Of a stretch of DNA of 46,857 nt, positions 27,209 to 45,486 are shown piece by piece; the first letter of the stretch is position 1; each line of letters opens with the position of its first letter. Source of the DNA: Microbacteriaceae bacterium (GTDB lineage: Bacteria; Actinomycetota; Actinomycetes; Actinomycetales; Microbacteriaceae); assembly GCA_947453465.1 (NCBI GenBank), contig CANGGL010000006.1:1-46857 (forward strand). Direction: 5' to 3'. The notes beneath the pieces are model-generated. The model saw only the letters and a list, made by a program, of their open reading frames with translations, ran no database searches and was not told the origin of the DNA. The translations under genes were made by a program, and so were the position numbers.

Positions 27209-27940
27209 CTACTTGCGCTTAGTCGAGTTCTTGCGCTTGGTGATGTCGTATTCGAGGCGGTTCAAGAACATGGTTGCCACCGAAACCGCGATCACCGAGA
27301 CAAAGGCCAGGCCGGCAATCATTAGGAAGACCGCGATCATGCGACCCTCAAACGTGACCGGGTAATAGTCGCCATAACCAACCGTTGCCAGGGTCACAAA
27401 GGCCCACCAGGTTGCATCACCAAACTGCTTGATGTTGGCGCCTGGGGCTAGGTGCTCGGCTTCATAAACGCCAAGTGCACAAACATAAATGAGCAGTGGC
27501 AAAATCAACCCGACATAGATGTTGATGCGAGCACTCAGGGTCTTGCCAACGCGAGACAAAAAGCCGAGGGCAATCACCACACGAAACATTCTGAAGGCTC
27601 TGAAGAACGGTAGAACCAGCGAGACAAGCTCGATTGCGTTGGCTCGTAGAAACCGACCTTTTTGGTTGCTCAAGATAAAGCGAGCTAGAAAGTCGACGAT
27701 AAAGATGCCCCAGATGACGTCAGACATGGCGACGAAGTCGAAGAGCACAACGCTGGTCCAGTGACCCAGGACCTCCATTGAATAGAGGCCCAAATACACC
27801 AAAGCCAAAATGGCCAACGGAATAGTCGACCAACGCTCCCATACGTGAACAGCGTGCTCAGCTCGAGTCTCGGTCTCGCCATCGTTCAAAAAGTCAATGG
27901 TGTCTTTACCGTTTAGCGGGTTCCCCTGTGTTGGTGCCAT
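27209..27940 (-). CDS. Voltage-gated-like potassium channel (6TM, GYGD filter)
   Basis: WWAFVTLATVGYGDYYPVTFEGR selectivity filter; S4-like FFRAFRMFRVVIALGFLSRVGK. Confidence 0.9.
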   Translation of the reverse strand: MAPTQGNPLNGKDTIDFLNDGETETRAEHAVHVWERWSTIPLAILALVYLGLYSMEVLGHWTSVVLFDFVAMSDVIWGIFIVDFLARFILSNQKGRFLRANAIELVSLVLPFFRAFRMFRVVIALGFLSRVGKTLSARINIYVGLILPLLIYVCALGVYEAEHLAPGANIKQFGDATWWAFVTLATVGYGDYYPVTFEGRMIAVFLMIAGLAFVSVIAVSVATMFLNRLEYDITKRKNSTKRK

Positions 27941-27996: not shown

Positions 27997-29157
27997 TTAC
28001 TTCTTAGGTAGGTAACCCTTTGGGCACTTCGGAGCTGCCCCCGAAACCTTGGTTACCAACTTGCCCTTGGCGCAGGTGATTGTTTGAATTTTCAGAGGCT
28101 TCGAAGCCGGAGCGCCGGCGCGAACCAGTTTGATTGTGGGCTTTGAATAGTGGAACCCCGAGGCTGAAACAAAAATCTTTCCATCTTTGTGCGTGACCTG
28201 GTTGATTGCTGTTTGGGTTGTGCCGTCTTCGCTGATGATGCGCACTTCAAGCTTTGGTGAACTTGAGAGGGTGTTTCCTGGCCACTTGCAGTTGATGTAA
28301 TCGTCGCTCGTCCATAGTTTGAAGAAACCAGTGTTGGCGGCTCCGCTGGCTTTTGAGTGTGGAGACTGAATCGCAAAATCCAACGACTGGGTCGCGTTGT
28401 TCCAACTTGGAGAACCAGCCGAGTTCGAGTTAAAGGCTTGAACTGTGTATCCCTTGTCGCCACAGACAGCCGGCCAATAACCGCGAGTCAGGTCTGAGTC
28501 GCCGTGGTGAACGATGAAGTGCAGTGTTGCACTGTCCACATCGGCTTGAGCTGAGAAGTCCTTCTTGTTTGCCGCCGAATAATCGCTGTAGAAGGAAACT
28601 GGAGTGCCCTTGCCCTCAAACATCCAGGTGTTGCCGCCCTTGATTTTGGTCTGTGAGAAGTCAGAGTCTTCGGCCACGAGCTGGACATTCTGTGGGATGA
28701 GGTAACTGGTGCGGATCTTGAATCGGACATGGGTTTGCAAGAGGTTGGCAGATTCAACACTCGGTCGCAGAGATGCGCCGTAGTGCAAGGCGCCATCGGG
28801 GGCCTTGAAGATGACATATTTGGGTGACTGAAGTGGCACATCGAGCGATGCGCTGGCTGCATTCCCATCTACCGTCGCGGTCCAGATGGATTGCTGAATT
28901 TTGAGGGGGTTGTCGTTTTGGCCAACCATCGCTGACAGCGGGGTGTTGGTTGAAGTGGCGGCGACGTACGCGCCGCTCTTGCTGATGAAGCCAAAGGATT
29001 CTATGCAGTCAAGCTCGGCCGGTGTGACGCAGGGTACCAAGTGGTACTCGGTAGAGCCGCTGAAGTCTTTTGCACCGTCAGCGGCAGTGGCTGAGACGGC
29101 TCCGGAAATAGAGATAACAAGTGCAAAAACTGCTGCTGTGGCAATGGATAGTTTCAT
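27997..29157 (-). CDS. Secreted protein S1: shares C-terminal domain and C-x15-C Lys-rich tail with the array
   Basis: Signal peptide MKLSIATAAVFALVISISGAVSATAA; tail TITCAKGKLVTKVSGAAPKCPKGYLPKK; GGGGGAAAA leader before ATG 29157. Confidence 0.85.
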   Translation of the reverse strand: MKLSIATAAVFALVISISGAVSATAADGAKDFSGSTEYHLVPCVTPAELDCIESFGFISKSGAYVAATSTNTPLSAMVGQNDNPLKIQQSIWTATVDGNAASASLDVPLQSPKYVIFKAPDGALHYGASLRPSVESANLLQTHVRFKIRTSYLIPQNVQLVAEDSDFSQTKIKGGNTWMFEGKGTPVSFYSDYSAANKKDFSAQADVDSATLHFIVHHGDSDLTRGYWPAVCGDKGYTVQAFNSNSAGSPSWNNATQSLDFAIQSPHSKASGAANTGFFKLWTSDDYINCKWPGNTLSSSPKLEVRIISEDGTTQTAINQVTHKDGKIFVSASGFHYSKPTIKLVRAGAPASKPLKIQTITCAKGKLVTKVSGAAPKCPKGYLPKK

Positions 29158-29230
29158 TTTTCCCCCGGAGGCAAATCTAACATTGGCACCTCCCAATGGA
29201 CTGCCGCTAATCTAATCCCTGGGGGTTTAG

Positions 29231-29722
29231 TTGCGATACAAATCAAAGGCACGGGCAGTGTTTGCTGCATTCTTGACGATTCTCGCCACGCTGTCACCGA
29301 TTTCGATCGCCCCAGCCCAAGCTGGCCTAAGCACCTTTTACTTGAACAGCAAGCCCGGCTGCTATTCGTTCACCGTGCCGGCCGAAGACAATTACGCCAT
29401 CGAGAACACTCGATACAAACTGCTCTTTAGAGGCAGCTGCGATGATGATCACCACATCCAAATAATTTATTCGGGCCCAATCAAGACCAAAAACGGTTCT
29501 TCGGCAACCGAGACTCAGGTCTATAAGGCATGTGAGGCCTATTACAAGAAGGTTGTGGGCACGACTCCACCGACCACGATTCAAAATAAGAAGCCTTACT
29601 TGCGCTATTGGTGGCCAGATGCCGGGCTTGAAACCCTGAAGTACAACAACAAGATTGTTTGCTACGTGCACCAGGCTGACAAAACTTATACGAATTACGC
29701 CATCATGATTGGCGGCTACTAA
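29231..29722 (+). CDS. Secreted hypothetical protein, 163 aa, four cysteines, TTG start
   Basis: Signal peptide RYKSKARAVFAAFLTILATLSPISIAPAQA; GGGGG leader at 29221; stop overlaps next start. Confidence 0.75.
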   Translation: MRYKSKARAVFAAFLTILATLSPISIAPAQAGLSTFYLNSKPGCYSFTVPAEDNYAIENTRYKLLFRGSCDDDHHIQIIYSGPIKTKNGSSATETQVYKACEAYYKKVVGTTPPTTIQNKKPYLRYWWPDAGLETLKYNNKIVCYVHQADKTYTNYAIMIGGY

Positions 29723-30705
29723 TGGCTAAGAAGCACTTCAAGCGCATTGGTTTTGCGGCCGGTTCCCTGTCAGTTTTAGCCGCTTTTCTACTACTGCTCT
29801 TTTCTGCCGGATCATCCACTTATGCCGCCACGCCAGCATTAGATCGCGACTACACAAAAACTGGCACACCAACCGGCGGTAAAGATGTGGTTAGCCTCGA
29901 GCTTGCCGTCACCAACGTTGACCCAAACTCTTCGGCCTTCGCCATCATCGCAACCCCGCGTCTAGCAGGCAGTTATGGCTCGGTGCTCGGCAACGGCTCG
30001 CTAGTTGAAACCCCTCTTCAGTTTGTCTTTGACGCCTATTCGGGTCAGGGTCGCTGGAGCAACGACGTTGCCGAGATAGCCGGTGGCATGGACATCGCCC
30101 TCAAGTTATTCGGTGATGTTCGCGACTATCCGTTCGACCGCTACAACTCATACCTGATTTCAACCGCTTCAGACATCAGCACTAAGAACCCGGCTCAAAC
30201 CGGCCTCTATATGCAAGACAGTAAAGAGGTTGTGCCCGGCTTCAAAGTTGCCAGCGAACTATTTTCAGTTTCAGCCGACGATAAGGCCAGCAAGAAACTT
30301 ATCGCCAGCACCATCGAAAGAGAACAGGTGATTGGCATCACCGGTGTGAAGTGGACGATTGAACGCAGCTTCGACACCGTTCTAACCGTGCTGCTCATGG
30401 CCTTGCTGATGATTCTCGGCGCCGTGGTCAGCACGCTCATCACAATTGCAATCATCCGTGGCAAACGCCCGCCTTCACTAAACTCGCTTGGTTGGCTGGC
30501 AGCGTTCTTGTTTGCAATGTTCTCGCTGCGCACCCAGTTGCCGGGCAACCCGCCAAACGGCATCCTCTTTGATCTCTGGGTTTTCTATCCGGTGGTTCTA
30601 GTGCTCGTGCTGCTCATCGCGGTCACCGTCACCTCGTGGATTCTTCGCGACGACTGGGACATGGCCAACCCGGTGGTTGCGATTCGCGGCAAGCGAGACG
30701 AATAG
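29722..30705 (+). CDS. DUF4436-like membrane protein 1
   Basis: Extracytoplasmic domain with YPFDRY motif followed by TM segments and RGKRPPSLNSLGWLAAFLFAMFSLRTQLPGNPPNGILFD. Confidence 0.7.
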   Translation: MAKKHFKRIGFAAGSLSVLAAFLLLLFSAGSSTYAATPALDRDYTKTGTPTGGKDVVSLELAVTNVDPNSSAFAIIATPRLAGSYGSVLGNGSLVETPLQFVFDAYSGQGRWSNDVAEIAGGMDIALKLFGDVRDYPFDRYNSYLISTASDISTKNPAQTGLYMQDSKEVVPGFKVASELFSVSADDKASKKLIASTIEREQVIGITGVKWTIERSFDTVLTVLLMALLMILGAVVSTLITIAIIRGKRPPSLNSLGWLAAFLFAMFSLRTQLPGNPPNGILFDLWVFYPVVLVLVLLIAVTVTSWILRDDWDMANPVVAIRGKRDE

Positions 30706-31730
30706 TGCGCAACCTTTTCGGTCACACCCGTGCCACTCGTCTGCCTGGGCTGCTCCTAGTCATCTCGACTATCTTGCTCGCGATCTATGGACTGTTCGCC
30801 GCTGGCTTGCAGACCACCCCGGTGAGCGTCGACAAACATCTCGCCGACAACCGCACCGACATTTGCACCCCCAAATATGTCGAGGGTCTTGACCCAGAGT
30901 TCATTTCAGAGAACGGTTGCCCGAGCGTGGTTCAGGCGCTGGTCACCTTCGACAAGGTTGACGTGGTAAGCGCGAAGCAGGCAAACCTTCGCATCCGCTT
31001 GTTCCCGGATGGCGACCAAGGCATGTCTCTCCATAACGGCGGCGTGCTGTTCGGTGGCACCCTGCTCAGCTTCGACGGCACCGGCCAAACCAACTTCTAT
31101 TTGAACGCGGATGAATGGGCTCAGGCTCAGACGGCGACGGTGCCCCTCAAAAATATGGCGGCCCTATCGGGATATCCGTTCGACAAATATGACGGCAACT
31201 TTTCGATGCTTCTGCAGAGCACCGAAACCGGAGAAACTCTGCCGCTCTGGTTGACCGCGAGCCCGACCGAGGTTCCCGGATACTCGGTGACGTTGAAGAA
31301 GGTGCCGCAACCCGAAGACATGGGCAGGGTTGTTTCGGCCAATACCGTCGGCTATGGCAAGCTCGATTTTCACATCGAACGCTCAACCAGCGACATCTTC
31401 CAGGTAATGCTGCTGATGTTCGTCTTGTTGGTTGGTGCCGCCTCAGCCGCGCTAACCACCTGGTTTATTGTTCGCGGGCACCGTCCACCATCGCTTGGCA
31501 TCCTGGCTTGGTTGGCAACTTATCTGTTCTCACTAATCCAAGTTCGCAATCAGTTTCCGGGCAGTCCGCCACTCGGTCTGAACCTCGACCGCTTCTTTAC
31601 CTTCCCGGCGATTGCGCTTGTGCTGGTCTTCATCCTCATCACCGCTTGGGCCTGGCTTCACCGCGCTGACTGGGATATGGGAAATAACGATGATGACAAA
31701 ACCGTAGATGTGCCAGAGCGGGTTGGATAA
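30705..31730 (+). CDS. DUF4436-like membrane protein 2
   Basis: GTG start overlapping the upstream TAG; YPFDKY and RGHRPPSLGILAWLATYLFSLIQVRNQFPGSPPLGLNLD, paralogous to the preceding ORF. Confidence 0.7.
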   Translation: MRNLFGHTRATRLPGLLLVISTILLAIYGLFAAGLQTTPVSVDKHLADNRTDICTPKYVEGLDPEFISENGCPSVVQALVTFDKVDVVSAKQANLRIRLFPDGDQGMSLHNGGVLFGGTLLSFDGTGQTNFYLNADEWAQAQTATVPLKNMAALSGYPFDKYDGNFSMLLQSTETGETLPLWLTASPTEVPGYSVTLKKVPQPEDMGRVVSANTVGYGKLDFHIERSTSDIFQVMLLMFVLLVGAASAALTTWFIVRGHRPPSLGILAWLATYLFSLIQVRNQFPGSPPLGLNLDRFFTFPAIALVLVFILITAWAWLHRADWDMGNNDDDKTVDVPERVG

Positions 31731-31760: not shown

Positions 31761-33338
31761 ATGAATAAAATCGTCCGCATCGCGGCCATCATCTCGGCAC
31801 TCGTTCTGGTTCCAGCATTGCCGTCTTTCGCCGCTGGCTTTGTTCCTACTGGAATAAATGAAGACAAGACCGGGAAGGTCGCATTCACAGTCGAAGACCT
31901 GCCTGATGGCGCCCCTTGGATTTCGCTAGCAACTGCGCAAGATGCGCCGGGCACATCACCGACAAACTCGAGCACAATGTGTCACAGCTTCACGAAGGAT
32001 GACTGTGCCACAAGTACTAACATGTTTGGAACCGCGATCATGCCGGTCTGCGGCGAAATAGTTGAAAACTGCATCGCAGGGCTCAAGATTTACAAGGTCG
32101 GCGAAGAGCCGGTTGCCGCTAAGTTCATCAAACAAGTTCAAGGTTTTACTTTCCCAAGTGAGCCACAGTACGGGAATCCGCAAGGATCAACACCTTCGGT
32201 GTGGGAATCAAACGTCGTAAACGCGGGTGGATCAACAAAGTATGTTGTCAGCCCACACATCAACTTCAGTATTACGGCCGGCAGACTTCATTATGCAAAT
32301 TTTTCGGCAAACGTCTTTCCGATTGTCGACAAATTTGCAGCCAACTTCAGGCCATCGGATATTCGTACTGTTACAGAAAATGGCTATCGAGTTTCAAATC
32401 ACGACAACGGTGAAAACACAGGAAATGATCTTTGCGCGGCTACCGAAACTGGCTGGTGCGCCTATCGTTCAGACTTTGCCCCGAACACTCGCGTGGAGCT
32501 CGACTTGAAGCTTTCAAACGCCGTCACCGGTTGGCTTCACGGGCGTCTCACTGCTCCTGAGATTGAAGTGACCAATATCGATGGCAACTTCAATGCCGTT
32601 TCAATTACAGGGAACCCAGTAGAAATCCCGATGATGTACGCCGTGATTGACAAATCAAAGGCATCCGCAGCAGTGCAGGATGCCCTTTCTAGAGGAAACA
32701 ATTCTTGGGGTGGCCTTCACCAAAACGGTGAGCTGTGGCGCAAATACTCGAGCGATAACAGTCTTGCACGCACGCTAATTCCAGAGGTGGCGGCCTCAAT
32801 TAAAGACACCGCCGCTGACAGCAACACCAGCTGGCAAGTGAAGTCGATCCAGACCCAAGGCTACGAAAACGAATGTCTTAAAGACACGAGTCGTTTGATT
32901 GGCCTAGTAACCACTAATGCAATGGCCTATGCTGGCGGGGCACCTGCTTGGGAAAATAACACACTCGCTTACGAAGTGGCCGGCCTCCACTACATGCCAG
33001 ACGGCAAGACCGCTGTCGAGGGAACCTATGATTTGGCGATCCGAAGTGATACTGCACGCTGCTTGTATGGCTTCAGCAAGGCGCCAATTTCCGCGACGAT
33101 CAACGTCACCGGGGCTAATGGAGAGACCAAGACCGCTACGACTGTAGTAAATGAAAAAGACGGTTGGCTCAAGCTCGCCGCTTACGGTTTCACGTTCAGC
33201 TCGCCAACGATCTCAGTGAAGCTAAGCCAAGCCAAGGCGCCGGCCAAGAAGACCACAATCTCCTGCGCAAAGGGCAAGCTCGTCAAGAAGGTAACGGCAG
33301 TTGGCCCTAAGTGCCCTGCCGGTTACAAGAAGAAGTAG
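31761..33338 (+). CDS. Secreted ten-Cys array protein P1 (525 aa)
   Basis: Signal peptide; GWLHGR; VTTNAMAY...RCLYGFSKAPISA; tail ISCAKGKLVKKVTAVGPKCPAGYKKK. Confidence 0.9.
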   Translation: MNKIVRIAAIISALVLVPALPSFAAGFVPTGINEDKTGKVAFTVEDLPDGAPWISLATAQDAPGTSPTNSSTMCHSFTKDDCATSTNMFGTAIMPVCGEIVENCIAGLKIYKVGEEPVAAKFIKQVQGFTFPSEPQYGNPQGSTPSVWESNVVNAGGSTKYVVSPHINFSITAGRLHYANFSANVFPIVDKFAANFRPSDIRTVTENGYRVSNHDNGENTGNDLCAATETGWCAYRSDFAPNTRVELDLKLSNAVTGWLHGRLTAPEIEVTNIDGNFNAVSITGNPVEIPMMYAVIDKSKASAAVQDALSRGNNSWGGLHQNGELWRKYSSDNSLARTLIPEVAASIKDTAADSNTSWQVKSIQTQGYENECLKDTSRLIGLVTTNAMAYAGGAPAWENNTLAYEVAGLHYMPDGKTAVEGTYDLAIRSDTARCLYGFSKAPISATINVTGANGETKTATTVVNEKDGWLKLAAYGFTFSSPTISVKLSQAKAPAKKTTISCAKGKLVKKVTAVGPKCPAGYKKK

Positions 33339-33341
33339 GAC

Positions 33342-34919
33342 ATGAAGAAACTAATCCGCATAGCAGCCGCTGTCGCCGCATTGGCATTGATTCCGGTTCT
33401 TCCGGCTTTCGCGTCAGACTACACCCCGCCAGGCGCAGACGTCACAAAGGGCATGGTCGGCGTTTACATCCCTGACCTGTCTATTGGTGCAATGAATAAT
33501 TCTCTAGTTGTCGACGGTAATTCAGTCCCTGATGCTGCCGGGCTCAGAAAGTTTTGCCCCTCGATGGAAACCGGTGGCTGTGGCCTCACTGGTAACTACT
33601 TTTACAAGGTGATGGCGGTGCTGCCTCCCTGCGGAGCCATTCAGGACAACTGCATCGAATCCGTTGATATTTACAAGGATGGCCAGCAGCCATCGCCCGC
33701 GAAGTACCTCAAGAGTGTCAATGGAATTAGCTTCTCAACTACCCCCGGAATTGGAAATCCAACGGGGTCCACTCCTTCAATTTGGGAAGCAGCGTCCGTA
33801 CCCAATTCCGCAGGATCGACCAAGTATGTCGTTACCCCAGGGCTCAACTACGAGGTCAGGAACGGCAAGTTTACGATCACTAATTTCGGCCTGATGGTTT
33901 CTCCGGTCGTGGATGTTTTAAACGATAATTTCACTCCTGCAAAAATCGGATACAACACCATAAATGGGCAGATAAGCACTCACGTTGAAGATGGAAATAG
34001 GTCAGGAACCATGGAATGCGCGGCAACCGATTCAGGGTACTGTGCTAAAAAGGTGGACTACTCAGACGGAACCAGAGTTCGCGTGTCGCTCCGTCTTTCT
34101 AACAAAGTGACGGGCTGGTTGCACGGTCGTGTCTCAAATCCTTCAATCAGCGTCGAGAAGATATCTGGAGTTTCGAACCGAATCACAATCGATGCAGACC
34201 CAGCCGTCGTGCCGGAAATGTACGCAGAGGTTGATTACCAGGCTCAAACTCCAAGGGTTCAACATGATTTGGATAACATGTACAGCGGCGGAGGAAATGA
34301 CTTCCTCCACAAGACGTGGCGCACGTATCCACCGGAGAGCCCGATGGCATTTGACTTTGTTCAACTCTTTGCTAGCCAGGCAAAAGATACCGTCGCAAAT
34401 GTGAAAACCTCTTGGACAATCGCTTCGTTCGGAGAGGGTACTAGCGACAACGAGTGCCTCAATGACAACTCCAAGTTAGTGGGTGTTGTCACGACCAATG
34501 CGCTTTCGTATGACGGTGGAGCACCACGTTTCGATGGCACTACGTTGAAATATCGAGTAGCTGGACTGCACTGGATGCCGGATGGCAAAACGCCGGTTGA
34601 GGGCACCTATGACCTTACGATGCGAAGTGAAACAGCACGTTGCCTCTATGGATTCAGCAAAGCACCGATCTCGGCATCGATCACTGTCACAGGTGCGAAC
34701 GGGGAATCTAAAGTGGCCACGACCGTGGTTAGCGAAAAGGATGGCTGGCTTCACTTGGCGGCCTATGGGTTCACATTCTCTAGCCCAACTATCTCGGTGA
34801 AACTTAGCCAGGCAGCTGCACCGGCCAAGAAGACCACAATCTCCTGCGCCAAGGGCAAGCTCGTCAAGAAGGTAACGGCAGTTGGCCCTAAGTGCCCTGC
34901 CGGTTACAAGAAGAAGTAA
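33342..34919 (+). CDS. Secreted ten-Cys array protein P2 (525 aa)
   Basis: Same architecture as P1; 3-nt spacer from P1; tail identical to P1. Confidence 0.9.
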   Translation: MKKLIRIAAAVAALALIPVLPAFASDYTPPGADVTKGMVGVYIPDLSIGAMNNSLVVDGNSVPDAAGLRKFCPSMETGGCGLTGNYFYKVMAVLPPCGAIQDNCIESVDIYKDGQQPSPAKYLKSVNGISFSTTPGIGNPTGSTPSIWEAASVPNSAGSTKYVVTPGLNYEVRNGKFTITNFGLMVSPVVDVLNDNFTPAKIGYNTINGQISTHVEDGNRSGTMECAATDSGYCAKKVDYSDGTRVRVSLRLSNKVTGWLHGRVSNPSISVEKISGVSNRITIDADPAVVPEMYAEVDYQAQTPRVQHDLDNMYSGGGNDFLHKTWRTYPPESPMAFDFVQLFASQAKDTVANVKTSWTIASFGEGTSDNECLNDNSKLVGVVTTNALSYDGGAPRFDGTTLKYRVAGLHWMPDGKTPVEGTYDLTMRSETARCLYGFSKAPISASITVTGANGESKVATTVVSEKDGWLHLAAYGFTFSSPTISVKLSQAAAPAKKTTISCAKGKLVKKVTAVGPKCPAGYKKK

Positions 34920-34946
34920 CCAAGCACAGGACGCTCAGTGCCAAAC

Positions 34947-34983
34947 AAGTGATGCCCCGGTCAAATTGACCGGGGCATCACTT
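34947..34983. terminator. Bidirectional intrinsic terminator between P2 and S2
   Basis: Near-continuous palindrome aagtgatgccccggtcaaattgaccggggcatcactt between convergent stops. Confidence 0.88.
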
Positions 34984-35005
34984 TTGAATCGGGAAAGGGT
35001 TCGAT

Positions 35006-36256
35006 TTACTTCTTAGCCTTGCCTGCACCACAGGTGTAAGCGGTGACCTTTGAGACCTTCTTGGTCTTGAGGTCAACACAGGTTAGCTTCGCCTTCACAG
35101 CCCACTTCTTGTACTTAGGGTTGCGGATGATCTTGAAGTTTGGCTTTGAGTAGCTGTAACCAGATGAGTCGATGATGATTTTGTTGTTCTTCACAGCAAC
35201 CTTGGTAAGCGCAGCTGAGCTTCCACCCTCTTCGGTAGTGATCTGAACGGTGAGAGCCGAAGCAGCATCCTTAGGGTTGGTTAGGCCCCAAAGAAGAAGC
35301 GCATCGTTCACCGGAATCGAAGCCTTGTAGAAACCCTTGTTCACGGTCACGCCATCCTTGGCAAAGTGAGGTGCCGACGCTGTCCATGAAAGCGACTTGG
35401 TCGCTTCGTCCCAAACCGGGGTCGAGGTTCCACATGAGCCGTTGGTGCCAACTGCCATGTTGCCTGAAACGCCATCAACACCGAAGCCCATGTCATCGTT
35501 AGCAACGATGATGGTTGCCTGCAGCTGAGAAACGTTGGCGATTGCAACGCCAGCCTCACCTGAGCAAGCACTCACCTTGTCGGCGATTGCAACCGGTACT
35601 GCTGAACCAGAGATGGTCAAGGTGTTGCCCTGAGCATCGGTGCCCTTGGTTACTGAGATTGAGTTGCCGATACCGACAGTTACGTCAGTGATGGCAGCAC
35701 CAACGCGAACCTTGATGGTGATGATGTCATCTGGGCTCAGCGAAACCGCATACTTGGCGTTGTCAGCCTGGTTTGCCTGGGTGGTCGCGTTTGAGGTTGG
35801 GTCAACCTTTACTGGGCGAACATCGAAAAATAGGTGGTTGGTGAAAGCGTTAGCTGCCTTCACATCAACGAAAAGGCCGTCATAACCAAGGGCGTTGCGG
35901 CCATCGGCAGACCAGGTCTCAGTTGACCAGCGGCCTGCAACGGCAGCGCCTGCAACCGAAGTAACAACGGCTGGCTTGTCGGTGGCGTCAGCGGTGCCGG
36001 TGGTTGCCGGTGCTGCCGGAGTGGCCACCGCCCCCAGGGCAACGCCTGACTTAGCGAAGGTAAGTGGCTCGCCCTGAGCCATGCCAAGTGACTGAATCGA
36101 GACTGACTCGACACAGAAGGTGACCCAAGTTTCGTCACAGGCTTTGAATGAAGTTTTTGGCACTGCAAAGGTCGGGGCAGCTGTTGCTGCTGAGACCGGA
36201 GCTAGTGCTGCGCCGACCAAAATGGCCGAGGCAATGATTGCTTTAATGCGGTTCAT
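35006..36256 (-). CDS. Secreted protein S2 (416 aa): shorter relative with array-like C-terminal domain and tail variant
   Basis: Signal peptide MNRIKAIIASAILVGAALAPVSAATAA; CDETWVTFCVESVSI; PVWDEATKSLSW...GYSYSKPNFKII; tail LTCVDLKTKKVSKVTAYTCGAGKAKK. Confidence 0.85.
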   Translation of the reverse strand: MNRIKAIIASAILVGAALAPVSAATAAPTFAVPKTSFKACDETWVTFCVESVSIQSLGMAQGEPLTFAKSGVALGAVATPAAPATTGTADATDKPAVVTSVAGAAVAGRWSTETWSADGRNALGYDGLFVDVKAANAFTNHLFFDVRPVKVDPTSNATTQANQADNAKYAVSLSPDDIITIKVRVGAAITDVTVGIGNSISVTKGTDAQGNTLTISGSAVPVAIADKVSACSGEAGVAIANVSQLQATIIVANDDMGFGVDGVSGNMAVGTNGSCGTSTPVWDEATKSLSWTASAPHFAKDGVTVNKGFYKASIPVNDALLLWGLTNPKDAASALTVQITTEEGGSSAALTKVAVKNNKIIIDSSGYSYSKPNFKIIRNPKYKKWAVKAKLTCVDLKTKKVSKVTAYTCGAGKAKK

Positions 36257-36441
36257 GAATGAAACCCCCAGTTTCTAAAGTGGTGCAAAGCACGTCTGCC
36301 GTGCTTCCCCAAGTTCTGCCTAAACGGGCATTGTTTTAAGCGTAGCGGAAATGCCCAAACCGAGCCGAGTTCGTTATAAAAACGGCATTTTGACGAATCT
36401 CGTAACCGGTAATCTTAAAGTCACGAACTTGGGGGTTTTCG

Positions 36442-38022
36442 ATGAATAAGCGCTCGCGCATCCTTGCTACTGTCACGGCAGTGGCACTAGCCATTGGAGT
36501 TCCGAACGCCGCTGCCTTAGCCGACAGCTGGGCGGTTCCACAGCCAAACACTGCGCCGTCGGATGGCAGCTGGGTAGTCGTGAACGAATCCGGCGGCTTC
36601 GACCTTTGGTCTACTCGAGAATCACACCGAGGTGGCAGCGAGGGATACATTTGCGCAAACGGACTTGGCACGCTGTCTTGCGACTTCACAGATCAGGTTT
36701 GGCATTTCACGGGCTCTCAAATTTTGCCTTTTTGTGTGACAGATGACCAGGAAAACTGCCTCGAGGGCATTTCGGCCATAAAGGCCGACGGCGCAGTTGT
36801 CCAAGGTAAGTTTCTTCACACCGTAGAAGGCGAAAAGTGGAAGGCCGTACCTGAAACTGGTCTTTATGAGGCGACTATGCCTGCCCTTTTCGAAATTCCT
36901 GGCGTGAAGAACAGCAGCGGAGCTGCCACCTACGTTGTTGTTGTTAAGACCAGCCTCGAATTCGACCAGTCAACCAAGAAGTTCGTCACTCGTTCGATGT
37001 CTGCCAATGTTTTTGGCTATTCGACGAAAACTTCAGGCTCCCAACCGACTAGGACTGAGGCGAAAATCGATTCCGACGGCATTAGCCGCATTTATCAGTT
37101 TCATGACCCAAATTGTCTATTCACTGAGACCAACGTGTGTGGAATCGAACAAGATTTCCCTAAGGACACAGCCTTTCAAGTTACGGCGCGAATCCCAAAT
37201 GAGGTGGCCGGTTGGTTCCATGGCCGCATGACCCATCAGGAAATTGCCATTGACAAATTTTCCGCGACAAACAACAAAGTTTCGATAAAGGCGAACCCGG
37301 CAGACGTTGCGCGCATGGCAGTTATTGCTACACGTGCCAACTCTTCAGAAACTGCTCAAGCTATGTTGATGCACCGCGGCGGACACGGCGGTTACACAGC
37401 ATTCAACGGAAATAGCATCAAGGACTTTTGGGCAACCGAGGGCGCTGAGGCATTCTTCGCGCTCAACGAATGGCGAGACGAGATGAAAGACACGGCGGCC
37501 GGAATATCAACGGAATGGAACTTTGCAACCGTTGGCAGTCAACCCGGAAATCAGTGCATGAAGGACACAGCCAAGGTGCTTGGAATGGTGACTACCAACG
37601 CGACGCTTTATAGCGGCGCAGCGCCCGAGTTCACCGGTGGCCAACTGAAGTACACGGTCGGCGGGCTTCATTATCAGCCAGATGGCAGGAGTCTTAACGA
37701 AGGTACTTATGACCTACTTATGCGATCGGATGTTGCCCGATGCCTATATGGCTTCAGCAAGGCCCCAATCTCAGCAACCATTTCAGTCGTCGGCGAAGGT
37801 GGCGAAAGCAAGGTTGCAACGACCGTTTTAAATGAAAAAGATGGTTGGCTGCACCTAGCTGCCTATGGCTTTAGTTTCAGCTCGCCAACGATTTCAGTTA
37901 AGCTCACGCAGGCCGGTTCGACTTCGGCTAAAAAGACCACAGTCACTTGTGCCAAGGGCAAGCTGACCAAGAAGATAACTGCAGTTGGGCCGAAGTGCCC
38001 TGCCGGTTACAAGAAGAAGTAG
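36442..38022 (+). CDS. Secreted ten-Cys array protein P3 (526 aa)
   Basis: Signal peptide; GWFHGR; RCLYGFSKAPISA; tail VTCAKGKLTKKITAVGPKCPAGYKKK. Confidence 0.9.
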   Translation: MNKRSRILATVTAVALAIGVPNAAALADSWAVPQPNTAPSDGSWVVVNESGGFDLWSTRESHRGGSEGYICANGLGTLSCDFTDQVWHFTGSQILPFCVTDDQENCLEGISAIKADGAVVQGKFLHTVEGEKWKAVPETGLYEATMPALFEIPGVKNSSGAATYVVVVKTSLEFDQSTKKFVTRSMSANVFGYSTKTSGSQPTRTEAKIDSDGISRIYQFHDPNCLFTETNVCGIEQDFPKDTAFQVTARIPNEVAGWFHGRMTHQEIAIDKFSATNNKVSIKANPADVARMAVIATRANSSETAQAMLMHRGGHGGYTAFNGNSIKDFWATEGAEAFFALNEWRDEMKDTAAGISTEWNFATVGSQPGNQCMKDTAKVLGMVTTNATLYSGAAPEFTGGQLKYTVGGLHYQPDGRSLNEGTYDLLMRSDVARCLYGFSKAPISATISVVGEGGESKVATTVLNEKDGWLHLAAYGFSFSSPTISVKLTQAGSTSAKKTTVTCAKGKLTKKITAVGPKCPAGYKKK

Positions 38023-38025
38023 GAA

Positions 38026-39621
38026 TTGAACTTGAAGGCATCACATAACCTCATTGCTGGTCTTGCTGGCCTTCTAATGCTCGGCTCAGCCTTGCCTGCA
38101 TTTGCCGCGGATCGCTACAACCCGATGGACACCCCGGCTCAACCTGGAACCCACCAAGGCACTGGCCAGGTCATCACCTCGATCGTCGACGGTGGCGGTG
38201 GCGGTGGCGAAAATGACCTAGTCATTCAACCGGGAGCCGTCGAAGCAGGCGGAACACGCGGAGAGTGGCTTCACTGCTATGGTTCGGGCGACCCAACTTG
38301 TGATTACAACAAGCCTGGCATCGACATTTTGTCTTGGGTCATTTTGCCTAACTGCTCAAATACATCCTCGCCTTATTGTGTGAAATCGCTAGAGGTTGCC
38401 GCGCCGGGCGAAGAGCTGAAACCTGCCGAGTTCCTTGGTGAGGCAAAAAAGGGCCTCATTATCCCGGGCGACCCGGCAACGGGGTTAATCCAGTCCGGTC
38501 GACCATCGCTTTTCGATGCTACAAATGCCGCAAATGCCGGCGGTTCAACAACCTATTCGGTGACAGTAGTTGCCACTTCTCACTTCAATCAGGGAACCAG
38601 GCAATATCAAATAACGGATCTAAACGCCTCAATTGTGGCCTACAAGAACGAGGCGGGGCAATATCAGGCGAGCTACTTCGATAAGAGCCAGAAACCTGGT
38701 ATGGCACGTCGCGGAGGCGGTGACATGTCAGTTTGCGCGTTCTATGAGGATGGCAATTGCGGCCGCATTCAGGATTTCACTTCGGGGACTCGCTTCAAAC
38801 TTCAAATGGTGATTCCTAAGGCTGTCGGCGGTTGGTTCCAGGGCCGAATGAAGGATCCACAGATCGCTGTCGATTCTTCCTCAACTCTTGGCAACGCCGT
38901 GACCATTGAAGCCGAACCAGTGACGGTTCCGCGCATGGCGGTTGTTCGAAACTTCAGCGATTACACCACCGAAGAGAAGACCTGGTTCCAAAACAACGGC
39001 AGTTGGGGCTCCGGTGGCAAAATCGGCACCGGTCCGCTAGCCGGTCAGTACAACGTTTTCGATGTGGTTGATTTCTACCGTCCTTTCGCCAAGGACACGG
39101 CTTCAGGCGTTCAGACTTTCTGGTATCTGGGAACCGTGATGGGAGGTCCGGGTAGCCCATGTCTCTCCGACACTTCAAAACTTATGGGCGTAGTGACAAC
39201 CAACGCTATGGGTTTCGACGGTCGTTCGCCAGCCTTTGAAAACGGCTACCTGAACTACCGGGTTACCGGTTTTCACTTCATGCCAGATGGCACTACCCCG
39301 GTTCAAGGAACATATGACTTATTGATGTCGAGTGACGCTGCCAGATGCCTTTATGGCTTCTCAAAGGCTCCAATCTCGGCAACAGTTTCAGTCGTAGGCG
39401 GTGACTCGAATTCTGTCGCGACCACGGTGGTTAGCGAAAAGAATGGTTGGCTAAAAATGGCCGCCTATGGCTTCACTTTCAGCCAGAAGACACTGAGCGT
39501 GCACATGACACAGGTCAAGGCGCCAGCCGTCAAGAAAACAATTACCTGCGTTAAGGGGAAAGTCACTAAGAAAGTGACGGCGATTAATGCGTCCTGCCCT
39601 GCTGGCTATCAGAAGAAGTAG
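38026..39621 (+). CDS. Secreted ten-Cys array protein P4 (531 aa), TTG start
   Basis: Same architecture; tail ITCVKGKVTKKVTAINASCPAGYQKK. Confidence 0.88.
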   Translation: MNLKASHNLIAGLAGLLMLGSALPAFAADRYNPMDTPAQPGTHQGTGQVITSIVDGGGGGGENDLVIQPGAVEAGGTRGEWLHCYGSGDPTCDYNKPGIDILSWVILPNCSNTSSPYCVKSLEVAAPGEELKPAEFLGEAKKGLIIPGDPATGLIQSGRPSLFDATNAANAGGSTTYSVTVVATSHFNQGTRQYQITDLNASIVAYKNEAGQYQASYFDKSQKPGMARRGGGDMSVCAFYEDGNCGRIQDFTSGTRFKLQMVIPKAVGGWFQGRMKDPQIAVDSSSTLGNAVTIEAEPVTVPRMAVVRNFSDYTTEEKTWFQNNGSWGSGGKIGTGPLAGQYNVFDVVDFYRPFAKDTASGVQTFWYLGTVMGGPGSPCLSDTSKLMGVVTTNAMGFDGRSPAFENGYLNYRVTGFHFMPDGTTPVQGTYDLLMSSDAARCLYGFSKAPISATVSVVGGDSNSVATTVVSEKNGWLKMAAYGFTFSQKTLSVHMTQVKAPAVKKTITCVKGKVTKKVTAINASCPAGYQKK

Positions 39622-39627
39622 GACACT

Positions 39628-41196
39628 TTGCGTAAAAAATCCGCCATCACTCTGGCACTTGTTTCGGCGCTCACGCTCTGTCCTGTTGTGGCTTTAGCGG
39701 CAGATCAGTATGCGCCTGACCGTGTCGAGATGCTGCCACGCGATTCTAAAGTCTTGGTGATGATCACCGAAGAAGGGCTAGTCAACAACGAGTCTGGCAT
39801 GGTCATTCAAAACCGCCAGTTTGACCCAGCGAATCCGCATCCTGGGCCCTGGTGTACCTCAACGAAAGTCTCAACCTGTGACCTTTCAAAAGCAGAGCAG
39901 GACATACTCGCTAGCTCCATCTTGCCAATGTGTGTCGCGGCAAATGACCCGGCATGCATCGAAAAACTTGAACTGGCACCGGCCGGTGGCGATTTTGTAG
40001 AAGCCAAGTATGAACGTACGGCGACTGGTGGGTTTCTCCACGATGCAGATCCAAAGTTGAACCTTCTTCAGGGTGCAGCAGGCTCTATTTTCGATGCGCC
40101 ATCGGTTCCAAGCGCTAGTGGAACCTCTAAATACGCTGTTGTCTTAAAGGTCGGGCAGAATTTTAGTCATGCAGCTGGAAAGTTCAACTCGCCGGAATCC
40201 ATCAAGGCCATGGTTGTTCCGGTGCGCGATGACACCGGTGCCCAGTATGGAAACATCGCTGCTGATGGAAGTGGTGGAGGCGCCACAAACGTGTGTGCCT
40301 ATTTTGACGTTGGGCACTGCGGCATTCCCCAGGATTTCGCGGATGGGACTAAAGTCAGGCTCTCTATTCGCGCACCTAAGACTCTCGGAGGATGGTTTCG
40401 GGGCCGAATCAAAAGTCCGAATATCTCAGTCGAATCAGCAAATAGTTCGAGCAACCGAATTGTGATGGAGGGCGAATCTAACAACGTTGCCCGACTTGCT
40501 TATGTGCAAGAAAAAGTAACTATGACTGATGATGATCGCAACTTCCTCAGCACAACCTCTAACTGGGGAAGTCAGGCAGGAATCGCTTATGGATTCGACG
40601 GTAGTGAACAGAAGGCTCCAGAGCTTATTGACCACTTCCGCACAAAAATGAAAGACACGGCAACCGGCACTAGTTCTTTTTGGACAATGGGCACGATCCC
40701 AGGTGGTTACGGAAGTGGCTGTCTGTCGGACACATCCAAGGTATTGGGGATTGTGACCACCAATGCGATGGCATACGAAGGCTCGGCGCCGTCGTTTAGA
40801 AATGGTGAGTTGGACTACAAGGTAGCCGGTCTTCACTACCTGCCCGATGGCAAGGATGAAGTCCAAGGCTCATACAACTTAGTTTTGCGAAGCGAAACCG
40901 CCCGTTGCCTCTATGGCTTCAACAAGGCGCCAATCTCAGCCAAGATCTCGGTCACCTCAGCATCTGGGGAGGCGAAAGTTGCCACCACGGTTATGTCTGA
41001 AAAAGATGGCTGGGTCAAACTCGCTGCTTATGGCTTCACCTTCAGCTCGCCAACAATTTCGGTGAAACTAACCCAAGAGGGTTCAGCTTCTGCACCATCG
41101 GCCAAGAAGACTACTATCACCTGCACCAACGGCAAACTAACTAAGAAGGTCACCTCGGTTGGCCCTAAGTGCCCAGTCGGATATAAGAAGAAGTAG
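39628..41196 (+). CDS. Secreted ten-Cys array protein P5 (522 aa), TTG start
   Basis: Same architecture; tail ITCTNGKLTKKVTSVGPKCPVGYKKK. Confidence 0.88.
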   Translation: MRKKSAITLALVSALTLCPVVALAADQYAPDRVEMLPRDSKVLVMITEEGLVNNESGMVIQNRQFDPANPHPGPWCTSTKVSTCDLSKAEQDILASSILPMCVAANDPACIEKLELAPAGGDFVEAKYERTATGGFLHDADPKLNLLQGAAGSIFDAPSVPSASGTSKYAVVLKVGQNFSHAAGKFNSPESIKAMVVPVRDDTGAQYGNIAADGSGGGATNVCAYFDVGHCGIPQDFADGTKVRLSIRAPKTLGGWFRGRIKSPNISVESANSSSNRIVMEGESNNVARLAYVQEKVTMTDDDRNFLSTTSNWGSQAGIAYGFDGSEQKAPELIDHFRTKMKDTATGTSSFWTMGTIPGGYGSGCLSDTSKVLGIVTTNAMAYEGSAPSFRNGELDYKVAGLHYLPDGKDEVQGSYNLVLRSETARCLYGFNKAPISAKISVTSASGEAKVATTVMSEKDGWVKLAAYGFTFSSPTISVKLTQEGSASAPSAKKTTITCTNGKLTKKVTSVGPKCPVGYKKK

Positions 41197-41202
41197 GACC
41201 CA

Positions 41203-42780
41203 TTGAAACTCTTAATTCGATCATTGGCGATGGCAGGTGCACTAGTTCTTGTTTCATCAACTACTGCGGTTGCCAAGGATGCCTGGGCTCTAGATAACTA
41301 TCCCGAAGCGACTATGGCGGCTGACATGGCGGCGGGCATTCAGCGGGTAAATGTGTCTGAAGATGGCCAATATGTCACGACCTCAAGCATGTACGCACAG
41401 TGGAAAAGCGCCGACGGTCGCGATGACTTTGGCTTGTGCACAAACGTCGCCAAGGATGATTGCGGAAAATCGAACCTAAGCCGTATCTTCGGAACCTCGC
41501 TGTTGCCAATTTGCGGCGATGTCGTTGAGAGCTGCATCAAGGGCCTAGAGGTCTATAAAGAAGGCGCCGCGCCTGAGGCTGCAAAACTGGTTAAGCAGAT
41601 TCCTACTTTCAAAACCGAGGGTGACCCAAGGGCCGGAATCCCGCAGGGCTCAGGACTGAGCGTATTTTCAGCTCCCAACGCGCCACACACGGGTGGTAGC
41701 GAATACACCGTTATGGCGGCAGTTTCTTGGGAGTTCCGCGATGGAGAGGCTTACATCCAACAGGTTCGGATTAAGGTCTCAGGTACATCGGAGCAAGCAA
41801 ACCAGCAAGCGAGATTGCAATATCCAGGTGTTTGCACCTCTCCTGTCGGCTCAATGAACGCGGGCCAGCGAACTCCTTGCGGTGGCCCTGGGGGGCCAGC
41901 TTGCGTTTATCACCTGGTGGGCTTCTGCGGCAAAGAGCAAGAGCTTTCTCCGAATACCCGCATCAAGCTGAGCTTGCAGGTGCCCAATCAGCTAGTCGGC
42001 TGGTTCCAAGGCCGCCTCAAAGATCCGAGTGTAGAGATTTCGCCAATCGACGCTCACTACAACAAACTGTCGATTGATGCTGCTGCGGTGACTGTGCCAA
42101 GGCTCTTTGTGAAATATGACACTAAGAAGTTTGGCAATGCCCTCGAAGGCGTTTCATACGGCACAAGTGGCCTAGATGTCAAAGAAATTGAGGCGAGCAG
42201 CGACAAGACTCGCGATGTGATTCGCAAGCTAACTCTTGCCGACAATGACACTGCTACGGCAACATCAACTCTCTGGACTGTTGCCACATTAAACTCCGGC
42301 GGTAACCCGTGTTTCGCCGACACCAGCAAGGTTGTCGGAATCGTGACCACTAATGCGATGGCCTACCTGGGTTCCGCTCCGGAGTTCAAGACCGGCTCAC
42401 TGAGCTATCAGGTTGCGGGAACGCACTATCTTCCGGACGGGGTCACCCCTAGCGAGGGCACCTATGACTTGGTTATGCGGTCTGAAACAGCACGCTGCCT
42501 CTATGGCTTTAGCAAGGCTCCGATCTCGGCCACGATCTCTGTGGTGTCTGACAAGGGTGAAAACAAGGTAGCAACAACTGTGATCAGTGAGAAAAATGGA
42601 TGGTTGAAACTAGCTGCCTACGGCTTCACGTTCAGCTCTCCAACTGTCTCGGTGAAACTATCTCAGGCTGGTGCAGTTGCTTCAGCCAAGAAAACCACGA
42701 TCGCCTGTGTTAGGGGAAAGCTCACCAAAAAGATCACCTCTGTTGGGCCGAAGTGCCCTGCCAGTTACAAGAAGAAGTAA
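41203..42780 (+). CDS. Secreted array protein P6 (525 aa), TTG start, twelve Cys
   Basis: Same architecture; extra Cys pair in VCTSPVGSMNAGQRTPC; tail IACVRGKLTKKITSVGPKCPASYKKK. Confidence 0.88.
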   Translation: MKLLIRSLAMAGALVLVSSTTAVAKDAWALDNYPEATMAADMAAGIQRVNVSEDGQYVTTSSMYAQWKSADGRDDFGLCTNVAKDDCGKSNLSRIFGTSLLPICGDVVESCIKGLEVYKEGAAPEAAKLVKQIPTFKTEGDPRAGIPQGSGLSVFSAPNAPHTGGSEYTVMAAVSWEFRDGEAYIQQVRIKVSGTSEQANQQARLQYPGVCTSPVGSMNAGQRTPCGGPGGPACVYHLVGFCGKEQELSPNTRIKLSLQVPNQLVGWFQGRLKDPSVEISPIDAHYNKLSIDAAAVTVPRLFVKYDTKKFGNALEGVSYGTSGLDVKEIEASSDKTRDVIRKLTLADNDTATATSTLWTVATLNSGGNPCFADTSKVVGIVTTNAMAYLGSAPEFKTGSLSYQVAGTHYLPDGVTPSEGTYDLVMRSETARCLYGFSKAPISATISVVSDKGENKVATTVISEKNGWLKLAAYGFTFSSPTVSVKLSQAGAVASAKKTTIACVRGKLTKKITSVGPKCPASYKKK

Positions 42781-42786
42781 CTTACC

Positions 42787-44373
42787 GTGAGTATTAAACG
42801 CCTATTAATTGCAACTTTACTGGCCGCAACTTTAGTCGCCGGTGTGGCATCGGTAAGTACAGCGGATACTTACCACGCACCTATGAACTCGATCCCTCAC
42901 GGTCAGTTAGGCGTTCACATTGTCGACCAGGCCTACTGGGGCGAGGGCGTGTCTGGGATATCGGTTGATCTCAAAGCCGGCGCTAAGTCGGGCACGATCC
43001 TCTGCGGTGGGCAAACTGGAACAGCTTGTGATTTTGACGCACTTGGCGCTTTGCGCATGCGGGCGAACCTGGTTATGCCTAAATGTGCCGATGAGGTTGA
43101 GGAAAACTGTATCGAAGACCTCGCTGTCTACAAAAGTGGCACCACTGCAAAGCCCGCCTCTTTTCTCAGGCAGGTCGAAGGTTCAACAACTGAACCTGAC
43201 TTGGCACAACAGCTGACTCGAGGATCAACTGCATCTCTCTGGAACGCCGAGGGTGTGAGTAATTCCGATGGCGTCGAGACGTACTCAGTCCTGGCCGTCC
43301 TAAATATGCAGCGCAATTCAGCCGCATCGAAATTTAGAGCTGGGTCGCTTAGCATCATGGTGATGCCTTACTTGGAAAAATCTTCGAAGTGGCAAATACC
43401 TGCCTCTGTGGTGCAAAATACCCGGGCTGACGGTTGGAGTACGGTGGGGAATCAGGGCGGAAATCCAGACTGCGCATGGGTAGATCAGGGCAAGTGCGGA
43501 TTTGTTTCAGACTTTGCGCCAGAGACTCGAGTGCGCCTTGCAGTGCGTTTGACGAATAGCCTCGGTGGGTGGTTCAAGGGGCGATTGAACGCTCCTGACA
43601 TCGCAATATCGAATTTCAGTTTGGGGGCCAACAGAGTTGTTCTCGATGCTGAGCCATCATCAGTTCCCCAGTTTTTCAGCCAACTAGATTTGGCGACTGG
43701 GCCAACTGACCTTGTTTCCTATATGCACGCTGGTTCTTCAGCACTAAGCGACCCTCGTGCTCCCGGAGGTACGTCATCGACTTGGTCAGACCAACAAAGT
43801 GCTTTCGATTGGATTAACAAGTTCCGATCCTTCACGAAAGACACCGCCTTTGGGGTATCTACAATCTGGTCAGCTGGAACTATTCAAGGTGGTCAAGGGG
43901 GTAAGTGTCTGAGCGATACCTCAAAGGTGTTGGGAATAGTAAGCACGAATTCGATGGTCTATGAAGGCCAGGCTCCGAGCTTTGATGGAAAAACCCTTGC
44001 CTATAAAGTCGCAGGATTGCACTTCCTTCCTGGCGGTGCTAAGGCGGCCAGAGGCACATACGACTTAGTCATGCGTTCAGATGTGGCTCGCTGCCTCTAC
44101 GGCTTCGGTAAGGCTCCTGTCTCTGCAACTATCTCGGTGGTCTCGGATAGCGGTGAAAACAAAGTTGCCACTACGACCGTGAGCGAAAAAGACGGCTGGT
44201 TGAAACTTGGTGCCTATGGGTTTACGTTTAGTGAAAACTCAATCAAGGCAAAGATCACACAGGCTGGTGCGGCAAGCGCCAAGGTTTCGAACGTTACTTG
44301 CATTAGGGGCAAAGCTTCACGCAAAGTTACTGGAGTGTCCCCTCGGTGCCCAGCGGGCTACAAGAAAAAGTAG
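42787..44373 (+). CDS. Secreted ten-Cys array protein P7 (528 aa), GTG start
   Basis: Same architecture; tail VTCIRGKASRKVTGVSPRCPAGYKKK. Confidence 0.88.
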   Translation: MSIKRLLIATLLAATLVAGVASVSTADTYHAPMNSIPHGQLGVHIVDQAYWGEGVSGISVDLKAGAKSGTILCGGQTGTACDFDALGALRMRANLVMPKCADEVEENCIEDLAVYKSGTTAKPASFLRQVEGSTTEPDLAQQLTRGSTASLWNAEGVSNSDGVETYSVLAVLNMQRNSAASKFRAGSLSIMVMPYLEKSSKWQIPASVVQNTRADGWSTVGNQGGNPDCAWVDQGKCGFVSDFAPETRVRLAVRLTNSLGGWFKGRLNAPDIAISNFSLGANRVVLDAEPSSVPQFFSQLDLATGPTDLVSYMHAGSSALSDPRAPGGTSSTWSDQQSAFDWINKFRSFTKDTAFGVSTIWSAGTIQGGQGGKCLSDTSKVLGIVSTNSMVYEGQAPSFDGKTLAYKVAGLHFLPGGAKAARGTYDLVMRSDVARCLYGFGKAPVSATISVVSDSGENKVATTTVSEKDGWLKLGAYGFTFSENSIKAKITQAGAASAKVSNVTCIRGKASRKVTGVSPRCPAGYKKK

Positions 44374-44544: not shown

Positions 44545-44841
44545 ATGAATATTCGTAATCCAAAATCACCTATGTTGCTGTTGGCCGTCACCTTGTTGGT
44601 CGGTTTGATGTCTAACGGTCCCGCCGCGATTGCTATGGATGCTTCATCGCAGGTGCACATTCATACTTGCAGTAAGGGCTATTACAAGAATTCAAACGGC
44701 GCCTGTACGAAGTCCCCAACAGCGTCTATTTCTTGGCCTGCTGGTGCGAGTGCAAAATGCCGTGATGGCTCCTACTCTTTTAGTGCCCACAGAAGTGGCA
44801 CTTGTTCTCGCCACGGAGGGGTAGCGGCTTGGACCAAATAG
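44545..44841 (+). CDS. Small secreted DUF3761-like protein
   Basis: Signal peptide plus AKCRDGSYSFSAHRSGTCSRHGGVAAW; GGGGGAAAA leader before ATG. Confidence 0.8.
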   Translation: MNIRNPKSPMLLLAVTLLVGLMSNGPAAIAMDASSQVHIHTCSKGYYKNSNGACTKSPTASISWPAGASAKCRDGSYSFSAHRSGTCSRHGGVAAWTK

Positions 44842-44844
44842 AAA

Positions 44845-45486
44845 ATGTTCATGTCTTTACTTCGAAAATTAGCCGCTACCTTCGCGCGTAACAGCGGATT
44901 CCTAATAGTTCTAGCAGTTATCTACTTGGCGATTTTTGCTTATCAAGTGATATCTGAACCAAGCGGAAATTTCTCTGCTTGCCTAGATCTCCTTAGTTAT
45001 GCAATCAACTTGATTTTTGTTGTGGATTTTATTTTGCGATTAGCGACCTCGCAAAGTCGAGTCCGTTTTGTTTTCTTGAATTTTATTGAGTTGCTCTCCT
45101 TGGTGTTGCCATTCATAAGAGCACTTCGCGTTTTCAGATTGATCGTCGCAGCCAATGCCATACAAAAACATCTCGGGACGAGACAAGTGCGAGCTGGCGT
45201 TAACTTGGCGATCTCGCTACCGCTCGTAGTGTTTGTGTCTGCACTCGCGATATTGGATGTCGAGAGGCATGCACAAGGAGCAACAATCACAAATTTTCCA
45301 ATTGCCATTTGGTGGAGCGTCGCTACCATGGCGACTGTTGGAGACGGAAGCTTTTCACCCGTCACTTGGGAAGGTCGAGTTGTCGCTTCAGCCCTGATGA
45401 TCGTTGGGATTGGTTTATTCGGCGCAGTGGCAGCACTCTTTGCAGCAAATTTCATCAACCCTAAGATTTCAGAAGAGAACAAATGA
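44845..45486 (+). CDS. Voltage-gated ion channel homolog with non-canonical TVGDGS filter
   Basis: VDFILRLATSQSRVRFVFLNFIELLSLVLPFIRALRVFRLIV; WWSVATMATVGDGSFSPVTWEGR aligns with WWAFVTLATVGYGDYYPVTFEGR at 27209-27940. Confidence 0.85.
   Translation: MFMSLLRKLAATFARNSGFLIVLAVIYLAIFAYQVISEPSGNFSACLDLLSYAINLIFVVDFILRLATSQSRVRFVFLNFIELLSLVLPFIRALRVFRLIVAANAIQKHLGTRQVRAGVNLAISLPLVVFVSALAILDVERHAQGATITNFPIAIWWSVATMATVGDGSFSPVTWEGRVVASALMIVGIGLFGAVAALFAANFINPKISEENK

Follow-up and report, generated by a model that had tools for sequence, protein, structure and literature searches.

What are the seven related secreted proteins encoded close together in this actinobacterial DNA, and with what do they act? 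The window, the whole stretch of 46,857 nucleotides that was analysed, carries seven genes (P1 to P7) that a preliminary description had presented as a tandem array of paralogs. All seven ORFs were found at the coordinates given there, with lengths of 522-531 aa, and a plausible signal peptide is predicted at each N-terminus, as had been claimed. The seven are indeed paralogs. The run is not uninterrupted: a minus-strand gene, COMP, lies between P2 and P3. The extent of the locus had also been drawn too narrowly, omitting the conserved partners COMP and DUF4436. The features are as follows.

27997..29196, minus strand: SHORT, a further relative of the family with the same C-x(7)-CIES motif, C-terminal domain and tail
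29231..29722, plus strand: 163-aa ORF, first in the DUF4436-P1-P2 unit; uncertain whether part of the locus
29722..30705, plus strand: DUF4436 (PF14494) membrane protein, partner gene (Pfam)
30636..31730, plus strand: second DUF4436 membrane protein (Pfam), ending 30 bases before P1
31761..33338, plus strand: P1, array protein, 525 aa (ORF and alignment)
33342..34919, plus strand: P2, array protein, 525 aa (ORF and alignment); AlphaFold2 model m4425ed98b386
34830..34916, plus strand: two-Cys basic tail module, example from P2 (profile and model)
34949..34985, no strand: probable terminator between the convergent P2 and COMP (16-bp perfect inverted repeat, 1-base loop, T run)
35006..36256, minus strand: COMP, a secreted relative transcribed divergently from P3, with homologs beside arrays elsewhere
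36442..38022, plus strand: P3, array protein, 526 aa (ORF and alignment)
38026..39621, plus strand: P4, array protein, 531 aa, TTG start (ORF and alignment)
39628..41196, plus strand: P5, array protein, 522 aa, TTG start (ORF and alignment)
41203..42780, plus strand: P6, array protein, 525 aa, TTG start, 12 mature Cys
42787..44373, plus strand: P7, array protein, 528 aa, GTG start (ORF and alignment)

The intergenic gaps within each array block are 3 or 6 bases, which suggests one transcript for P1-P2 and another for P3-P7; the divergent pair COMP and P3 is separated by 185 bases. A promoter scan found sites no more frequently than in shuffles. GGGGG runs are located a few bases before the start codons at 29231, 31761, 36256 (minus strand), 36442 and 44545. 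These runs are probably ribosome-binding sites, and the genes that they precede seem to head transcription units. The 163-aa ORF matches no known family above cut-off.

A 98-aa exported DUF3761 protein (PF12587, 86 bits; 44545-44841, plus strand), below the 100-aa ORF limit, is encoded just after P7. Ion_trans_2 ion-channel genes flank the locus at both ends (27209-27940, minus strand; 44845-45486, plus strand), and a gene 86% identical to the one at 27209 lies beside the array of another genome, G006. In the left part of the window (1-26632) lie genes for sugar or polyol catabolism, for a transporter of the oligopeptide type, for a Fic protein (23920-25110) and for a GH2 glycosidase; no link between this gene content and the array was seen.

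The cysteine scaffold and its relatives

P1-P7 can be aligned along their whole length with end-to-end identities of 36-52%, and the GW[LF]xGR block, the [KN]DT block, the TTN...RCLYGFxKAP block and the two-Cys tail all occur as previously claimed. The divergence of the N-terminal part relative to the C-terminal third was likewise borne out: identity is about 22-29% in the body versus 63-73% at the C-terminus. All ten mature Cys positions are common to the seven proteins. Nine fall in alignment columns that hold Cys in every member (maximum 0 in 2000 residue shuffles), and the tenth is aligned except in P3, where it is shifted by one column. The mature counts of 10 in six members and 12 in P6 were recovered; the eleventh Cys of P5 lies inside its signal peptide.

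The pairing of these residues was examined through Cys loss in an alignment of 64 homologs. Cys 72/80 and Cys 502/518 are never lost singly, and Cys 226/234 are lost together with one exception. Cys 97, 104, 372 and 434 are never lost, and the pairings 97-104 and 372-434 therefore rest on spacing and elimination. This pattern of paired loss fits, and supports without proving, the five conserved disulfides that the preliminary description had suggested. The genome of the window encodes VKOR, an oxidative-folding gene, which was not found in six of the seven genomes reached via related loci.

No Pfam, NCBIfam, PHROGs, PADLOC or PDB family matches P1-P7 above cut-off, in agreement with the claim that the body belongs to no named Pfam family. 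Across the 64 members, the best Pfam match is to PF14299 PP2 (E 3.9e-5), and scattered NCBIfam matches involve 1-3 members each. Searches of PDB sequences with 7-row and 64-row profiles returned no relative up to E 10, and PADLOC, which covers anti-phage defence, gave no match for P2, P3, P7, COMP, SHORT or the 163-aa ORF. The AlphaFold2 model of P2 (pLDDT 86.9, pTM 0.86) has no full-length Foldseek counterpart among the matches listed from the PDB and BFVD, where the query-normalised TM reaches at most 0.16 and 0.19, respectively. No ligand-binding fold was recognised. No description of the family was found in the literature searched, nor was the tail motif found there written as letters. Set apart by these searches of curated libraries and the PDB, P1-P7 would represent an undescribed family.

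The PP2 match raises the idea that the C-terminal domain is a lectin-like, carbohydrate-binding module that serves the proteins in binding or scavenging polysaccharide found on algae or detritus. PP2 (phloem protein 2 lectin) is a plant family whose profile weakly matches residues 420-498 in 32 of the 64 members, but P1-P7 score 14.3-22.6 bits, all seven under the Pfam gathering cut-off of 25 bits. The C-terminal domain was also modelled alone (pLDDT 82.5). Foldseek aligned it to beta-sandwich domains of carbohydrate-active enzymes in the PDB with a probability of up to 0.99; however, these matches are weak (E 0.014 or worse, TM at most 0.43), as any beta-sandwich might give, and no PP2 entry occurs among the 50 matches listed. 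We consider a carbohydrate-binding role rather unlikely on this balance.

Partner genes and distribution

COMP has the N-terminal Cys-pair motif and the C-terminal domain in common with the array members, and its profile is separate from theirs. It adjoins arrays at 14 loci (the window, L029, L032, L033, L038, L044, L045, L048, L049, L050, L054, L056, G006 and G016), a count biased by the use of the array to find these loci. In the window, L029, G006 and G016, COMP lies on the strand opposite to the array; in the other ten loci it is upstream on the same strand. A SHORT gene sits between COMP and the array in G006, and G021, G069 and G082 carry array members without COMP.

The two membrane proteins upstream of P1 are members of DUF4436 (94.5 and 79.9 bits versus a cut-off of 23.2) and are array partners rather than relatives of P1-P7. 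DUF4436 was searched by its own Pfam family in 19 genomes, of which eight encode nine genes: two in the window and a single copy in each of the others. All nine genes are located at an array cluster, most of them directly adjacent and that of G180 about 5 kb away; as the 19 genomes were mostly picked for carrying arrays, this result shows placement, not co-occurrence. The same Pfam search found none in the array-bearing G006, G016, G021, G092, G093, G095, G117 and G150, and a more divergent DUF4436 homolog flanks an array in G092. No function for DUF4436 was found in the literature searched.

That other freshwater actinobacteria also carry the family had been missed. A check of copy number and synteny, which the preliminary description had proposed, showed that arrays recur in related genomes, as does the neighbourhood of COMP, array and DUF4436 in the Nanopelagicales (acI). 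A scan of GTDB species genomes returned 28 loci, all in actinobacterial records. The named carriers are Planktophila lacus MMS-21-148, IMCC26103 and IMCC19121, and the rest are MAGs; several of the 28 loci bear the title Bifidobacterium breve, which was taken as a naming error. In the genus of the window, 12 of 67 genomes match, with E below 1e-150 in three only (G000, G006 and G016). Of 121 genomes sampled from the order to which P. lacus belongs, 92 match, and the best E is below 1e-100 in 31. Besides the window's own genome, only two in a phylum sample of 397 match, and these by the tail alone. One array gene in G016 (G016:C1:117429-118870; L151:12388-13874) appears split into two ORFs of 252 and 243 aa and is probably a broken copy.

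Large, exported, beta-rich proteins present in many copies in acI genomes could form a coat or lattice resembling an S-layer, in which COMP would supply the main subunit and the array members variant ones. COMP is well conserved (52% mean column identity) and recurs beside the array, which speaks for such a coat. Against a coat of this kind, Pfam scans of the 64 members detected no SLH, CWB2 or other known S-layer domain, and the very unequal copy number and the absence from most of the genus would be odd for an essential structure. We regard such a coat as unlikely.

The portable tail and the history of the array

The array proteins end in the form TITCxKGK...CPxGYKKK. With a 29-position profile of this tail, seven genomes gave 7-23 copies each; the eight matches in the window's genome all belong to this locus. 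Elsewhere the tail occurs, among others, on trypsin-like proteases, on one BIg21 and one YHYH protein, and on a protein with nine Flg_new repeats; an FMN_bind protein is a borderline case. The tail occupies the extreme C-terminus in most carriers, directly follows the signal peptide in L148, and is repeated in 2-4 copies per protein in L126, L117, L146 and L145. By these profile matches, the two-Cys basic tail is a separate portable module. Its occurrence on unrelated exported proteins is what would be expected of the shared export or attachment module proposed earlier. In G016 the array proteins have a short basic stretch at their end in place of the two-Cys tail, which indicates that this module is dispensable.

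Array relatives of 745-766 aa (L126:4498-6798, L117:2390-4627 and L146:8297-10582) carry three or four copies of the tail module, with linkers rich in Pro, Gly and Gln between them. Two small exported proteins from another family of the same phylum (L175 and L176) bear the tail on a different body.

Sortase-anchored (LPxTG-type) proteins are likewise exported and share a C-terminal module across unrelated bodies, but the array tail has neither an LPxTG motif nor a C-terminal membrane helix or hydrophobic segment. No sortase was detected in the 11 array-bearing genomes searched, among which the window's genome is 85% complete, and the search controls were positive; non-sortase retention is thus plausible. 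A sortase is present in two of three complete genomes of the same genus without an array (G005 and G062, corresponding to L174 and L173), although the numbers are small. The tail also resembles the SLH, CWB2 and LysM wall-binding modules, which are short, portable and sometimes repeated on unrelated exported proteins, and none of these was matched by Pfam in the members or tail-bearing proteins scanned.

The extreme C-terminal position in most carriers, and the failure to find a sortase or a known anchor, would also suit an export or processing signal that is removed, releasing the proteins into the water. Such a signal would not be expected directly after a signal peptide or in internal tandem copies, and AlphaFold2 predicts the tail of P2 as a well-ordered hairpin (pLDDT 93-96), unlike a cleaved signal. 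Removal of the tail therefore appears improbable.

The C-terminal module also has a history of its own, as its separation from the body in the preliminary description implied. In the tree of the bodies (residues 30-371), a single clade of P1-P7 is rejected (p-AU 3.5e-6), as is a clade of the five L029 array members tested (p-AU 0.0015). In the C-terminal tree, the L029 members form a clade (97/97) and a P1-P7 clade is not rejected (p-AU 0.155). The C-terminal tree rejects the body pairings of P6 with L029:8385 (0.016) and of P1/P2 with L029:9911 (0.005), for which support in the body tree is moderate (85/79 and 90/67, respectively). These conflicts indicate that body and C-terminus differ in history: body types cross genomes, whereas C-termini tend to resemble those of the same genome. 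For most of the array, the low identity of four-fold silent sites in the C-terminal domain (28-31%) led us to reject recent gene conversion as the source of the C-terminal similarity. The silent sites of paralogs, those of this domain included, are saturated, so that any exchange is old; the exception is the tail of P1 and P2, in which 17 of 19 four-fold silent sites are identical.

Close orthologs are under strong purifying selection, in body and C-terminus alike. Their dN/dS by region is 0.04-0.22 where silent sites are unsaturated and the ratio is measurable, with no consistent excess in the bodies, and no positive selection was found. No homolog was found in phage, plasmid and viral collections, the IMG/VR scan consisting of one peptide pattern. 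Together with the saturated silent sites of the paralogs, these results lend no support to the ongoing or phage-driven diversification of displayed domains that had been suggested. Antigenic-variation style display under phage or grazer pressure, to which the contrast between divergent bodies and conserved C-termini might point, is very improbable given these ratios and body types that are old and common to several genomes.

A candidate envelope system

The reading that we prefer, which we regard as evenly balanced between right and wrong, is that P1-P7 are envelope-retained binding or structural proteins that share a non-sortase retention end and work with COMP and DUF4436. Each would be a beta protein of several domains that is exported, remains at the cell envelope and is braced by five disulfides, mostly short-range ones. 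Their shared C-terminal end, predicted as a beta-sandwich-like domain of about 110 residues followed by the 29-residue basic two-Cys beta-hairpin tail, would serve as the common retention or assembly part. The divergent bodies, old and specialised, may carry different binding functions, and P1-P7 may physically cooperate with secreted COMP and the adjoining DUF4436 membrane protein. Weighing against this reading are the G016 array without the two-Cys tail, the members found without COMP, the array-bearing genomes in which the Pfam search gave no DUF4436, and the fact that no ligand-binding fold was recognised.

A broader proposal, which we advance tentatively and with somewhat less than even confidence, is that freshwater actinobacteria without sortase share the two-Cys hairpin tail as a general envelope-retention module, on which COMP, array and DUF4436 form a dedicated multi-component surface system. 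The source bacterium is a streamlined freshwater organism of the Microbacteriaceae. The family is likewise plentiful in many genomes of the acI actinobacteria, which abound in fresh water, and it occupies a considerable part of streamlined genomes. Its occurrence in many acI genomes, often beside the same two partners, suggests a so far unrecognised cell-envelope system and not an oddity of a single genome. The neighbourhood shared by two freshwater actinobacterial groups, together with the portable tail, provides handles on how proteins may be retained without sortase.
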